The notes under the pieces: generated by a model
What the model saw: only the letters and a program-made list of their open reading frames with translations
Database searches by the model: none
What the model was told of the DNA's origin: nothing
From: Acidimicrobiia bacterium
GTDB lineage: Bacteria; Actinomycetota; Acidimicrobiia; Spongiisociales; ZC4RG35
Assembly (NCBI GenBank): GCA_025937235.1
Contig: JAICRU010000018.1
Location: 1 to 42,714 of the forward strand
Direction of reading: 5' to 3'
DNA: 42,714 nt
Part shown: positions 19,193 to 25,071 of the stretch, in pieces
How positions within the stretch are numbered: the first letter of the stretch is position 1
Layout: the number at the start of each line of letters is the position of its first letter
Translations under genes and position numbers: made by a program

Positions 19193-20902
19193 ATGAAACG
19201 AATGCGCTGGTTGGCGCTTGTCGCCGTGATCGCCCTCGTCGCCGCCGCTTGTGCCGGCACCGAGGGTGGCGACACGACGACCACCGCCGGTGAGGAGGCA
19301 ACGACGATGGCACCGGAGGAGACGACCACGTCGGTCGCCACCACCGAGGCCCCGTCGGAACTTCTCGTCCTGGACTCCGGAGGGTGTGACTACGGGGGCA
19401 AGATCGCCTCTATCGAGGCCACCTCGCCGACCGAGGTGGTGTTCACGTTGTGTTCCACCGACCCGGCGTTCCTGGCCAAGCTGGCGTTCATCCCGTTCGC
19501 CGTGCAGCCCTCGGAGCATCTGGAGGCAACCGGCGGTTCACCCCTGGAGAACCCGGTCGGCACCGGCCCATTCATGCTGCCCGAGGGCGGCTGGGCCCGC
19601 GGCACCGAGATCGTCTACGAGGCAAACCCCGACTATTGGGGCGAGGCTCCGGCCTTCAACACACTCGTGTTCCGTTGGCGTGAGGACAGCACTGCCCGGA
19701 TCACCGAGTTGACCTCAGGGAATGCGGACTACATCACCAACCTGGCGGCGAGCGACTACGCCACCATCGAAGGTGATGCCAACCTGCAGCTCCTGGTCGA
19801 CGAGAACCCGAACGTGTTCTATCTCGGCTTCAACAACCGGTTCGAGCCGTTCAACAACGAGCAGGTTCGTCAGGCGGTCGCGATGGGGATCGACCGGCAG
19901 CGAATCATCGACACCTTCTATCCGGAGGGGTCGGCGGTGGCCGATTTCTTCACACCCTGCATCATCGAGAACGCATGCGAGGGTGAGCCCTGGTACGAGT
20001 TCGACCCCGAAGGGGCACGCGCCCTCCTTGCCGAGGCCGGCTACCCCGACGGCTTCGATACCACGATCAAGCTCCGCGACGTGTTCCGTGTCTATCTGCC
20101 CGAGCCGACCGTCGTCGCCGAGGACATCCGCGCCCAATTGGCGGAGAACCTCGGGATCAACGCCACGATCGAGGTCATGGAGTCGGGTGCTTTCCTCGAG
20201 GAGAACGCCACGGGCGAACAGCAGGGGCTCCACCTCTTGGGGTGGGGGGCGGACTACCCGCACGTGACCAACTTCCTCGATTTCCACTTCGGTGGTGTCA
20301 ATGTCCAGTTCGGTGACCCGTTCGAGGACATCGTGGAAACCCTCGCCGAGGGCTCACAGACCGTGGACCCGGCGGCGGCCCAGCCCATCTACGAGGAGGC
20401 CAACAACCTCATTCGTCAGCATGTGCCAATGGTCCCGATCGCATGGGGTGCGGCGGCCGATGCCGCGCTGGGGACCGTGGAGAACGCACTCACGCCGCCA
20501 GTCGGCGCCCCGCAGTTCGCCACGATGAACCCCGGCGACGACGACCTGGTCTTCGTTCAGAACGCAGAGCCGATCTCACTGTTCTGCGCCGACGAGACAG
20601 ACGGCGAATCGCTTTCGGCCTGTGAGCAGGTCCTGGAGGGCCTGTACGGATACGACCTCGAAGGCCAGCCTGTTCCCAAGCTGGCGAACGAGTGCACTCC
20701 GGACGAAGCCGGCCTGGTCTGGACATGCTCTCTCCGTGAGGGGGTCACGTTCCACGATGGCTCGACCTTCGACGCCAACGATGTCGTTGCCTCCTGGTCG
20801 GTGGGCCTGGATGCAGCCAACCCGTTGCACGTCGGCAACACCGGTGTGTTCGAGTACTTCGCCTATCTGTGGGGCTCATTGATCAACGCCCCCGCCTCTT
20901 GA
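19193..20902 (+). CDS. Peptide/solute ABC transporter substrate-binding lipoprotein, family 5 (DppA/OppA-like), with apparently circularly permuted domain order
   Basis: Lipobox signal (MKRMRWLALVAVIALVAAAC); NPVGTGPFMLPEG...YEANPDYWGEAPAFNTLVFRW; C-terminal WTCSLREGVTFHDGSTFDANDVVASWSVGLDA; followed by dppBCDF-type genes. Confidence 0.92.
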   Translation: MKRMRWLALVAVIALVAAACAGTEGGDTTTTAGEEATTMAPEETTTSVATTEAPSELLVLDSGGCDYGGKIASIEATSPTEVVFTLCSTDPAFLAKLAFIPFAVQPSEHLEATGGSPLENPVGTGPFMLPEGGWARGTEIVYEANPDYWGEAPAFNTLVFRWREDSTARITELTSGNADYITNLAASDYATIEGDANLQLLVDENPNVFYLGFNNRFEPFNNEQVRQAVAMGIDRQRIIDTFYPEGSAVADFFTPCIIENACEGEPWYEFDPEGARALLAEAGYPDGFDTTIKLRDVFRVYLPEPTVVAEDIRAQLAENLGINATIEVMESGAFLEENATGEQQGLHLLGWGADYPHVTNFLDFHFGGVNVQFGDPFEDIVETLAEGSQTVDPAAAQPIYEEANNLIRQHVPMVPIAWGAAADAALGTVENALTPPVGAPQFATMNPGDDDLVFVQNAEPISLFCADETDGESLSACEQVLEGLYGYDLEGQPVPKLANECTPDEAGLVWTCSLREGVTFHDGSTFDANDVVASWSVGLDAANPLHVGNTGVFEYFAYLWGSLINAPAS

Positions 20903-20980: not shown

Positions 20981-22060
20981 ATGATCGGATACATCCTCCG
21001 TCGACTGCTGATCGCCATCCCGGTGCTGATCGGTGTCCTCCTGGTGGTGTTCCTCCTCGTCAGGCTGGTACCCGGAGATCCGTGCACTGCACTCCTCGGC
21101 GAGAGAGCCACCCCCGAGGCGTGTGAGCGGTTCAACGAGGTGAACGGTCTCAACGAGCCGCTCTATGTGCAGCTCGGGATCTATTTCGGAAATGTGTTGA
21201 GCGGGGACTTCGGGGAGTCCATCCGGTTCTCCCGACCGGTGAGCGACATCATCATCGAGCGACTCCCGGTGACACTGGAGCTGGCCATAGCCGCGTTGTC
21301 GATAGCGGTGATCGTCGGTATCCCGCTCGGCATCATGGCGGCACGTCGTCACAACACCACCGCGGACGTCGCGGCCATGGCCTTCGCAAATGTCGGCGTT
21401 TCCATGCCCATCTTCTGGCTCGGGCTCCTCCTGGCCTATCTCTTCGCGGTGGTACTGCTCGGCACCCCCTTGGCCCTTCCTCCGAGCGGGTCATTGAGCC
21501 CGGGCACCCGGCCCCTCCCCTTCTACGAGGTGTGGGGATGGCAGATCTCCGAGGAGGGCTTCGGTGCGACGGTCGCCGAATTCATATCGAACATGACCGT
21601 GACCAATGCCTTCATCAGCTTCCAGTGGGAGATCTTCTGGGACGCGGTGCAGCACATGATCCTCCCCGCCATCACCCTGGCCACCATCCCGATGGCGATC
21701 ATCGCCCGGATGACTCGCTCTTCGCTGCTCGACGTGCTGGGTCGTGATTACATCCGGACCGCCCGAGCCAAGGGCGCACTGGAGAGGAAGGTGGTGAGAC
21801 AGCACGCTTTGCGGAACGCCATGCTCCCGGTGGTGACCATCATCGGGCTCCAGCTGGGGCTGCTCCTCGGTGGTGCTGTGCTCACCGAGACCGTGTTCGG
21901 GCTGGCCGGGGTGGGCACGGCTCTGTTCGAAGCGATCAATGCCCGGGACTTTCCGATCATCCAGGGGTTCACCGTCGTCATCGCCGCCACCTATGTCATC
22001 GTCAATCTGCTGGTGGACATCTCATATGGCTACCTCGATCCAAGAGTGAGATTGGAATGA
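20981..22060 (+). CDS. ABC transporter permease, DppB/OppB-type
   Basis: MIGYILRRLLIAIPVLIGVLLVVFLLVRLVPGDPC; EAA-like loop DYIRTARAKGALERKVVRQHALRNAMLPVVTIIG. Confidence 0.95.
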   Translation: MIGYILRRLLIAIPVLIGVLLVVFLLVRLVPGDPCTALLGERATPEACERFNEVNGLNEPLYVQLGIYFGNVLSGDFGESIRFSRPVSDIIIERLPVTLELAIAALSIAVIVGIPLGIMAARRHNTTADVAAMAFANVGVSMPIFWLGLLLAYLFAVVLLGTPLALPPSGSLSPGTRPLPFYEVWGWQISEEGFGATVAEFISNMTVTNAFISFQWEIFWDAVQHMILPAITLATIPMAIIARMTRSSLLDVLGRDYIRTARAKGALERKVVRQHALRNAMLPVVTIIGLQLGLLLGGAVLTETVFGLAGVGTALFEAINARDFPIIQGFTVVIAATYVIVNLLVDISYGYLDPRVRLE

Positions 22061-23010
22061 CCCTTGGCGAAGCGGAGATGTCGTTACGGCCCGATGTGGC
22101 CGTTCCCGATCCCGAGTCCCTCCTCGAGCAGCCGGGCTCGGTCTGGCGCATCGCCCTCCGACGCTTCTTCCAGCGGAAGGTGGGGATCGCCGGCCTGATT
22201 CTCGTGTGCTTCATGATCCTGGTGGCGATCTTCGCCCCGCTGATCGCCCCTTATGACCCCTACCAGAACTTCATCGGTCAGGAGGGCGCGGAGAGATGGG
22301 CACCTCCCTGCATCAACGCCTTCGGCTGTGAGGGCCCTCAGCACATATTCGGCCTGGATGGCAATGTCCGCGACTTCTTCAGCCGGGTGGTCTATGCGGC
22401 TCGGGTGAGTCTCCCTCTCGGCTTCACCACGGTCTTGATCACCATCGTCATCGGAACGGTCATCGGGGCCATCGCCGGGTATGCCGGCGGATGGTCCGAC
22501 AACGTCCTGATGCGGATCATGGACGTGGTGCTGGGGTTCCCCTCACTGATACTCGCCATCGCCATCGTTTTCGTGCTCGGTCCAGGCCTCCGTAACACGC
22601 TTCTCGCCATCGCCATCGTGACCATCCCGCAGTACGCCCGTGTGATGCGCGCCTCGGTCCTGTCCGTCAAGGAGGTCGACTACGTCTGGGCTTCTCGGGC
22701 GCTGGGGGCGTCACCTTGGAAGGTTCTGGTGACCCGGGTGGTCCCCAACGCCCTCACCCCTTTGGTGGTCCTGGGGACCCTGGGGATCGCCACCGTGATC
22801 CTGGAGGCAGCGGCGTTGGGATTTCTCGGTCTCGGCGCCGTGCCCCCCACTCCGGAATGGGGCTCGATGCTCGCCGCCGAGCGTGACCGGATCTTCACCG
22901 CCCCCCATCTGATGATCTTCCCCGGCCTGGCGATCATGATCACCGTTCTCGGCTTCAACCTGATGGGGGATGGGCTCCGCGATGCCCTCGACCCCACCTT
23001 GAACAAATGA
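22057..23010 (+). CDS. ABC transporter permease, DppC/OppC-type
   Basis: FFQRKVGIAGLILVCFMILVAIFAPLIAPYDP; DYVWASRALGASPWKVLVTRVVPNALTPLVV. Confidence 0.95.
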   Translation: MTLGEAEMSLRPDVAVPDPESLLEQPGSVWRIALRRFFQRKVGIAGLILVCFMILVAIFAPLIAPYDPYQNFIGQEGAERWAPPCINAFGCEGPQHIFGLDGNVRDFFSRVVYAARVSLPLGFTTVLITIVIGTVIGAIAGYAGGWSDNVLMRIMDVVLGFPSLILAIAIVFVLGPGLRNTLLAIAIVTIPQYARVMRASVLSVKEVDYVWASRALGASPWKVLVTRVVPNALTPLVVLGTLGIATVILEAAALGFLGLGAVPPTPEWGSMLAAERDRIFTAPHLMIFPGLAIMITVLGFNLMGDGLRDALDPTLNK

Positions 23011-24077
23011 GCGCTGCCCGGCCCCTGCCCGAGCCTGCCATCGACACCGACGCTCCCTTGCCCGTGCCCGCCGGCGAGCGGCTGCTGGAGGTACGTGGCC
23101 TGAAGACCCACTTCGATACACGACAAGGTGTGGTCAAAGCAGTCGACGGCGCCGATTTCCACGTCGATCGCGGTGAGGTGTTGGGTCTGGTCGGTGAGTC
23201 GGGTTGCGGGAAGTCCGTCACCTCACTGTCGATCATGGGGCTTGTGCCCAAGCCGGGCCGGGTGGTGGCAGGTGAGATTCTCTTCGGCGGGAAGAACATC
23301 GCAGATATGAACGCCAGCGAAGTGCGCGACCTCCGTGGGGAGCACATCGCGATGATCTTCCAACAGCCAACCTCGGCCCTGAACCCAGTCTTTCGCGCCG
23401 GCGCCCAGATCCAGGAGGTGTTCGAGCTGCATCGAGACTGGAGCTCGGAGGTCGAGGAGGAGAAGGTCATCGAGATGTTGGTCAAGGTCGGCATCCCTGA
23501 CCCGAAGCGACGGGCCGCCTCTTATCCCCACGAGCTGTCGGGGGGCATGGCGCAACGGATCATGATCGCCATGGCCCTCGCCTGTGAGCCCGAGCTACTC
23601 ATCGCCGACGAGCCCACGACCGCACTCGACGTAACCATCCAGGCTCAGATACTCGATCTGATCCGGGACCTTCAGCAGAAGTCGAGCACCGCCGTGATCC
23701 TGATCACCCACGACCTTGGCATCGTCGCCGAGATGGCGGACCGGGTGGCAGTCATGTACGCCGGTGAGATCGTCGAAGAAGCCGACGTTCGCACCATCTT
23801 CAGGAATCCCCTCCATCCTTACACCAAGGGCCTCATCGGCTCGATCCCGGTGCTGGGCGCGCTGCGGGAGCGTCTCGAAGTCATCCCGGGTGTGGTCCCC
23901 TCCATGATCGACCTACCCCCCGGCTGCAGATTCGCCCCACGTTGTGGGCCAAGAGTCGAGCACGGCCTGCAGATCTGCACCCAACAGGAGCCCGACTTGC
24001 GCGAGGTCGAAGATGGGCACAAGGCCAGGTGTTGGCTCTACTTCGGGCCGGAGAAGGTGATCGACCTCGATGGCTGA
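23007..24077 (+). CDS. ABC transporter ATP-binding protein, DppD/OppD-type
   Basis: [16 protein letters not shown] Walker [35 protein letters not shown]. Confidence 0.95.
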
Positions 24078-25071
24078 GACCCTCGTCGAGATTCGTGACC
24101 TGGTCAAAGAGTTCCCGGTCCGGGGCGGCATCCTGCAGCGTCAGGTGGCCACGGTCAGGGCGGTCGATGGGGTGAATCTGGACATCACCAAGGGTGAGAC
24201 GCTTGGGCTGGTAGGTGAGTCGGGATGTGGCAAGACCACCCTGGGGCGGATGCTCACCCGACTCCTCGAGCCGACATCCGGGACGATCCGCTTCGAAGGA
24301 GAAGATATCACCCATCTCTCCGGGAATGAGTTGAAGCCGTTCCGGCGGCGGGTGCAGATCATCTTCCAGGACCCCTACGGCTCGCTCGACCCGCGTTCCC
24401 AGGTCGGGTCGGCGATCGCCGAGGGTCTCCGGCTTCACGGGATCGGTGACAAAGACGAGCGTCAGGAGCAGGTGAAGGAGATGCTGGAGCTGGTGGGCCT
24501 GCGTGCCTCCCACGCCAGCCGCTATCCGCACGAGTTCTCCGGCGGTCAGCGACAACGCATCGGCATCGCCCGCGCCCTCATTCTCAAGCCGGATCTCGTG
24601 GTGGCGGACGAGCCCGTGTCGGCGCTCGATGTGTCGGTGCAAGCCCAGGTCCTCAACCTCCTCACCGAGCTCCAATCGGAGCTCAGCCTCACCCTGCTTT
24701 TCGTGGCCCACAACCTGGCAGTCGTCGAGCACATCTCCGACCGGGTCGCCGTGATGTACCTGGGACGGGTAGTCGAGTTGACGGATCGCGACACCCTGTA
24801 CCGCCACCCGTTACATCCCTACACCGAGGCGTTGCTCTCCGCCATCCCCATCGCCGACCCGGATCGCCCGCGCGACCGTCGCATCCTGCAAGGGGAGATC
24901 CCCTCGCCGCTGAACCCTCCTCCCGGGTGTCACTTCCACCCCCGGTGCCCGATCGCCCGCCAAGGGCTCTGCGACGTCCAAGATCCGCATCTCATGGAAT
25001 CACCACAGGGCCCTCATCACCAGGCGGCATGCTGGCTGCGTGCGGGGGATCTGGCCATCGCCCCGGCTTGA
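24070..25071 (+). CDS. ABC transporter ATP-binding protein, DppF/OppF-type
   Basis: [60 protein letters not shown]. Confidence 0.95.

Follow-up and report, generated by a model that had tools for sequence, protein, structure and literature searches.

The window (the whole stretch of DNA that was analysed, 42,714 nucleotides) carries on its forward strand a Dpp-type importer operon in the gene order cp1-dppBCDF, whose features are collected in Table 1. The product of the receptor gene (569 amino acids; ATG at 19193, stop codon at 20900–20902) begins with a signal peptide and lipobox and a Thr/Glu-rich linker, continues with what is canonically the middle and C-terminal region of a family-5 substrate-binding protein, and only then reaches the canonical N-terminal region, immediately before the stop codon, so that the usual first fifth of the chain comes last. 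This segment order, mid1-mid2-oldN, is designated CP1, and a second order found in related genomes, mid2-oldN-mid1, is designated CP2.

Table 1. Features of the cp1-dppBCDF operon in the window, and the location of the CP2 gene
Feature	Position	Strand	Basis
cp1 gene, circularly permuted family-5 substrate-binding lipoprotein (supported), 569 aa	19193..20902	+	PF00496, PDB alignment, rotation, AlphaFold2
Signal peptide ending in lipobox VAAAC, lipidated Cys20 (predicted)	19193..19252	+	sequence
Thr/Glu-rich linker	19253..19384	+	sequence
CDYGG motif (Cys65), new N-terminus	19385..19399	+	family alignment
Canonical middle-to-C-terminal part (DppA about 125-502), placed first	19394..20542	+	PF00496, PDB alignments
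Arg299, equivalent of DppA Arg355, which binds the peptide carboxylate in DppA	20087..20089	+	alignment, conservation; role PMC12136057
Asp354, equivalent of DppA Asp408, which binds the peptide amino group in DppA	20252..20254	+	alignment, conservation; role PMC3295651, PMC12136057
Fusion point of old C- and N-termini (NPGDD/DLVF), residue 450/451	20542..20543	+	family comparison, joint gap across CP1
Canonical N-terminal segment (DppA up to about 120), placed last	20543..20899	+	PF00496, PDB alignments
dppB-like permease, scoop loop G-E41-R42 between Cys35 and Cys48	20981..22060	+	sequence, profiles
dppC-like permease, Cys pair PPCINAFGC	22057..23010	+	sequence, profiles
dppD-like ATPase	23007..24077	+	sequence, profiles
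dppF-like ATPase	24070..25071	+	sequence, profiles
CP2 gene (Anaerolineaceae)	L096:2190-3944; equivalents in L095, L097-L103, L020		

Segment order in the receptor

The family profile PF00496 (SBP_bac_5) matches the native protein with 260 bits against a gathering cut-off of 32.4, in two stretches whose order is reversed with respect to the profile: residues 68–370 correspond to profile positions 62–365, and residues 46–98 of the C-terminal piece to positions 1–53. Rotating the sequence by hand yields a single collinear stretch over profile positions 1–365 with 269 bits. Since collinearity appears only after rotation, the protein is a permuted variant of the family and not an ordinary member. 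Alignment with its best relative in the PDB, 3m8u, pairs window residues 71–419 with chain residues 126–479, and residues 469–559 with 22–120, leaving no segment duplicated and nothing substantial absent, and after rotation the alignments to 3m8u, 5f1q and 1dpe are all collinear. Each segment occurs once, the order is rotated, and both parts are homologous to one family, as required of a circular permutation. The joint between the old termini is tight, with a gap of 0–6 residues across CP1 proteins, and a simple pattern search finds a lipobox-like motif in 100 of 113 CP1 ORFs. Out-of-order profile matches that rotation mends, collinearity with known structures once rotated, an AlphaFold2 model, and conservation across two phyla together support the identification of the window lipoprotein as a full-length circular permutant of a DppA-like family-5 substrate-binding protein, as far as sequence comparison and structure prediction allow.

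A preliminary description of this locus, accurate in its coordinates, length and quoted sequences for positions 19193–20902, had already proposed a full-length permutation of the family-5 fold in which all parts occur once, without duplication or truncation, and the profile, rotation and 3m8u alignments, the model and the two-phylum conservation agree with it. The two out-of-order SBP_bac_5 stretches it expected were found, and the permutation-aware comparison it suggested with DppA/OppA gave the collinear alignments above. It had placed the fusion of the old termini near 20530–20540, close to the junction now located at 20542/20543. Its assignment of the new termini to a hinge or lobe region holds for the lobe but not for the hinge: they fall in the N-lobe, at about DppA residues 120–125, presumably domain II of the DppA/OppA fold.

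Distribution of the two orders

Genomes were queried with native, rotated and junction-spanning sequences, and segment order was then checked for each ORF. This yielded 113 different CP1 proteins, distributed over Acidimicrobiia, a second actinobacterial class and Chloroflexota, along with 10 CP2 proteins, the remainder being canonical. CP1 genes nearly always have dppB/dppC as neighbours, which bears out the homologues of like order that the preliminary description had proposed seeking. A scan of GTDB species genomes returned the CP1 order at 99, 92, 58, 57 and 43–46% identity to the window protein, the complete genome of Leptolinea sp. HRD-7 (AP024710) being among those recovered. Permuted-type matches occur in 10 of 34 genomes of the window's family, in about 54 of 396 genomes of its class, and in a single genome of another class among 298 from its phylum; in the phylum of Leptolinea they occur in about 56 of 399 genomes, and in 62 of 147 within the Leptolinea family, a count that takes in CP2 and partial genes. 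No permutants were found in 299 genomes of Pseudomonadota and 148 of Desulfobacterota using a junction-spanning query, with the number of scored candidates capped and no positive control, so that absence from these groups is not demonstrated. The permuted family is old and widespread, a point missing from the preliminary description, as are the second permutation within it and the diagnostic cysteines of the partner permeases. Because collinear profile models break such receptors into partial matches, genome annotations probably list them as DppA-like proteins, either ordinary or partial.

Assembly gaps and contig ends within CP1 genes (L106:3808-3809, and in genomes G065, G066, G073 and G111) lie clustered around the mid1/mid2 boundary, the position of the CP2 cut; the clustering may reflect chance, coverage or strain-level rearrangement. 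The gap in L106 might be mistaken for a split-gene (fission) intermediate, but it consists of just two Ns left by scaffolding within a CP1 gene.

In ten Anaerolineaceae genomes the receptor follows the second order. Eight of these genes (in eight genomes) are complete ORFs of 584–613 amino acids from stop to stop, free of ambiguous bases and provided with their own signal peptides, the incomplete ones being cut by a contig end (L020) or interrupted upstream (L095). The new ends lie in the C-lobe, in the loop corresponding to about DppA 342–345, and a linker of 30–31 residues with the CP1 N-terminal motif (e.g., TAPNCDYGGEF) bridges the former CP1 ends. The cysteine of this CDYGG site is present in 106 of 113 CP1 proteins, in all ten CP2 proteins (where it lies in the internal linker) and in one of 29 canonical relatives. 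All three CP2 segments are 65–75% identical to a Leptolinea-type CP1 group. The operon order is D-F-CP2-B-C in L095–L102 (L103 is cut after B) and D-F-CP1-B-C in L221, and the partner proteins of L221 and L096 are 77% (DppB) and 76% (DppF) identical. The receptor gene has thus been permuted twice in series, first to CP1 and then from CP1 to CP2, as follows from the nesting of CP2 within CP1, the shared operon slot, and the CP1 N-terminus kept as an internal linker.

This nesting was recovered in trees built on rotation-normalised alignments. FastTree with 152 taxa found CP1 and CP2 monophyletic (0.96) with CP2 nested, and a quick IQ-TREE profile-mixture tree of 60 rows gave support of 100 to the split between canonical and permuted receptors, 100 to CP2, and 99 to the placement of CP2 inside CP1, so that two order changes suffice. 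A CP1 clade excluding CP2 was rejected by the AU test (p = 0.0066), and in an independent DppB tree the permutant-linked DppB proteins were monophyletic (0.964), with the CP2 partners nested. In a reduced IQ-TREE run, bootstrap support for monophyly of the permutants fell to 70%, owing to the position of L051, a canonical row on a long branch, next to the permuted clade; the node taking in this row received 99. The simplest history suggested by these sequences would involve one change from canonical to CP1 and one from CP1 to CP2. The way in which each rotation arose, tandem duplication followed by trimming, is inferred, permutation by duplication being the standard model (PMC3320104). No ORF with a repeated segment, which would represent a fused-duplication intermediate, was found in the fetched loci. 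Tandem CP1 genes upstream of dppB, the arrangement needed for permutation by duplication, occur at L107:5060-8926 and L197:6041-9482, both on the reverse strand. The L107 pair was rejected as the source of CP2, both copies being less CP2-like than the single-copy Leptolinea-type CP1 in every segment.

The permutants also share a set of cysteines. The window receptor has eight in its mature part, the minimum number that the preliminary description had given. Three receptor pairs co-occur in equal counts among the 113 CP1 proteins (106 and 106, 77 and 77, 83 and 83). Almost all permutants also have a fourth pair, C65/C88, Cys88 appearing in 112 of 113 CP1, 10 of 10 CP2 and none of 29 canonical relatives. 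The cysteines bracketing the DppB scoop are found in 96/96 and 95/96 partners of CP1, in 10/10 partners of CP2, and in 2/21 and 1/21 partners of canonical receptors, while the extracytoplasmic pair of DppC is present in 26/26, 9/9 and 0/17, respectively; both pairs hardly occur outside the partners of permuted receptors. One receptor of canonical order (L186, genome G310) nonetheless has a DppB whose scoop is flanked by both cysteines, a state that could be relict or convergent. Disulfides in the receptor, DppB and DppC are inferred from this co-occurrence alone, those predicted being C65–C88, SLFC with SAC, NEC–WTC and TPC–NAC in the receptor and Cys35–Cys48 in DppB.

Ligand, origin and fold

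In E. coli DppA, Arg355 and Asp408 (383 and 436 in the precursor) bind the two ends of the dipeptide and are replaced on release by two residues of the DppB scoop, Glu41 and Arg42 (PMC12136057, PMC3295651). Arg299 and Asp354 of the window protein align with this pair. The two equivalents are kept in 105/113 and 110/113 CP1 proteins and, where the column is present, in 8/8 and 10/10 CP2 proteins, the exceptions belonging solely to an orphan group (L108–L113) or a divergent pair (L193/L194); all dpp-linked CP1 receptors of the main lineages retain both. Partner DppB proteins of CP1 and CP2 keep Glu41 and have Arg or Lys at position 42. On the strength of these conserved residues the window protein is probably a receptor for short peptides working as the usual flytrap, although no binding data exist. 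Dipeptide as the ligand is not proven, since the NCBIfam DppA equivalog NF043070 scores 146.9 bits, far from its cut-off of 1005. The permutation could be real and the cargo another, such as a metal chelate, an opine or glutathione, the protein then not being a peptide importer: family-5 receptors serve diverse cargos, the NCBIfam scores lie far below every equivalog cut-off, and the nickel, glutathione and Sap models are not far under that of DppA. Conservation in dpp-linked CP1 and CP2 systems of the residues that grip the dipeptide ends, together with the scoop residues, makes a different cargo unlikely, though by no means negligible.

Orphan CP1 paralogues L108–L113 stand without dpp genes beside them, apart from a weak ATPase match close to L113, and have lost the Arg355 equivalent, possibly reflecting a different ligand or a sensory role. 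The fast-evolving CP1 genes L193:6939-8903 (+) and L194:5321-7549 (−) lie divergent to an adjoining canonical receptor gene with dpp genes around, and their products have lost both ligand-gripping residues.

Short-peptide receptor or not, its C-terminal segment might have come from a different binding-protein gene, making the protein a chimera and no true permutation. Domain shuffling of this kind has been suggested to explain TpMglB-2, in which the permuted part is a poor match (PMC4990184), and the deep CP1 genes L193 and L194 do adjoin canonical receptor genes. This origin is nevertheless improbable, as all parts occur once and rotation produces one collinear match. Moreover, the canonical Chloroflexota receptors L189–L191, the closest canonical relatives by identity (about 36%), are among the best canonical matches for moved and unmoved parts alike and share the receptor Cys pair EC..WTC in the moved part, and the donor of CP2, from the identity of its three segments to one and the same CP1 group, is clearly CP1. 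Like the window system, L189–L191 have this N-terminal-segment pair, the Arg/Asp pair and their own dppBCDF, but they are not permuted, lack the CDYGG/FTLC cysteines, and have a DppB without the scoop-flanking cysteines.

The fold of the permuted chain was predicted by AlphaFold2 from window residues 54–569 and a 30-row alignment in which canonical relatives were entered only as separate fragments, and therefore conveyed no segment order. The resulting single-chain model is confident (mean pLDDT 87.7, pTM 0.85), with the moved old-N segment mostly at pLDDT 81–95 and its last 30 residues at about 59–67. Foldseek found family-5 peptide receptors as the best PDB matches, superposing the model on GbpA (3m8u) with a TM score of 0.68 and an rmsd of 2.5 Å over 387 columns, which cover the in-order part only. 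With that restriction, model quality and structural matches agree with a two-lobed cluster C fold. A CP2 protein (L020, truncated at its 5′ end and lacking the first ~60 residues) was modelled with pLDDT 84.7 and pTM 0.85. Completion of the N-lobe by the moved segment of the same chain is strongly suggested but not demonstrated, lobe closure being read from confidence scores only. Intra- and intermolecular closure are inseparable from sequence alone, and the segment could instead complete the N-lobe of a neighbour, with a domain-swapped dimer as the working unit; this is very improbable given that CP1 and CP2 were both modelled as single chains at pTM 0.85 and that the tight CP1 joint is expected of old ends already adjacent.

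Finally, the window comes from a draft assembly of 171 contigs, but an assembly or scaffolding artefact as the source of the rotated order is rejected, and chance with it, because the same order recurs in independent metagenome-assembled genomes (43–99% identity), the complete genome AP024710 and 113 distinct proteins, while the CP2 ORFs contain no N.

Known permutants and the proposed history

Compared with E. coli DppA and its DppABCDF system, the window system shares the SBP_bac_5 family with a near-whole-chain match after rotation, the Arg355/Asp408 pair, dppBCDF neighbours and scoop Glu41; it differs in its rotated chain (twice rotated in CP2), its lipoprotein nature, its additional pairs of cysteines (receptor, DppB scoop and DppC), and an identity of only about 25–29%. 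A natural circular permutant among lipid-tethered ABC-importer receptors is already known in TpMglB-2 (Tp0684) of Treponema pallidum, classed as ‘Type Ic / Cluster Bc’, which has a clade of relatives, for which ligand binding and conformational change have been demonstrated, and whose authors raise tethering as a possible reason for the permutation (PMC4990184). Unlike CP1 and CP2, it belongs to the sugar class of cluster B, has three N-lobe strands moved, has a single reported permutation, and has a poorly matching moved part. Cluster B sugar-receptor ancestry finds no support for the window protein; its listed sequence and structure matches are all family-5/cluster C. Several natural permutants of one fold are known also among the permutation-by-duplication families of DNA methyltransferases and saposin/swaposin (PMC3320104), whereas in CP1/CP2 two permutations are nested on one tree, occupy one operon slot, and leave the scar of the first in the second. 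Neither a permuted DppA/OppA-type (family-5) receptor nor a natural serial permutation was found in the open-access literature, subscription papers being outside the scope of the search, and a paper on the OpuA substrate-binding domain considered as a possible precedent does not mention permutation. For the specialist, a permuted lipid-tethered receptor is therefore familiar from the sugar class, and the serial step is the surprising part.

The explanation held with considerable confidence as a whole, in the absence of any experiment, is that of a Dpp-type importer receptor permuted once and then again in Anaerolineaceae, and acting as a flytrap for short peptides. A canonical family-5 receptor gene would have been permuted to CP1 in the ancestor of the present family, its old termini joined almost without a linker and new ends opened in the N-lobe. 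The rotated chain would most likely refold into the same two-lobed flytrap, in which Arg299 and Asp354 may clamp the charged ends of a short peptide, and docking on DppBC is inferred to proceed in the usual, unaltered way, the attachment site of the lipid anchor being what changes. In one Anaerolineaceae branch the CP1 gene would then have been permuted again without leaving its operon slot, a linker of ~30 residues bridging the earlier ends and new ends opening in the C-lobe, and each rotation may have passed through the duplication and trimming inferred above. A more tentative suggestion, doubtful as yet, concerns the reason for such serial permutation with a kept permease and a lasting scar: the anchor has moved, to the N-lobe in CP1 and to the C-lobe near the ligand site in CP2, and this may have been retained as anchor and disulfide-stapled DppB scoop together set docking.

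As a rule, natural circular permutations are deduced from a pair of end states. In the present family the canonical type representing the ancestor coexists with the first permutant and with a second one derived from it, with the direction of change available from sequence, tree, operon and scar, and the steps of permutation can therefore be compared directly. The same importer also occurs with its receptor anchored at different sites, so that the effect of tether position on transport is open to experiment.
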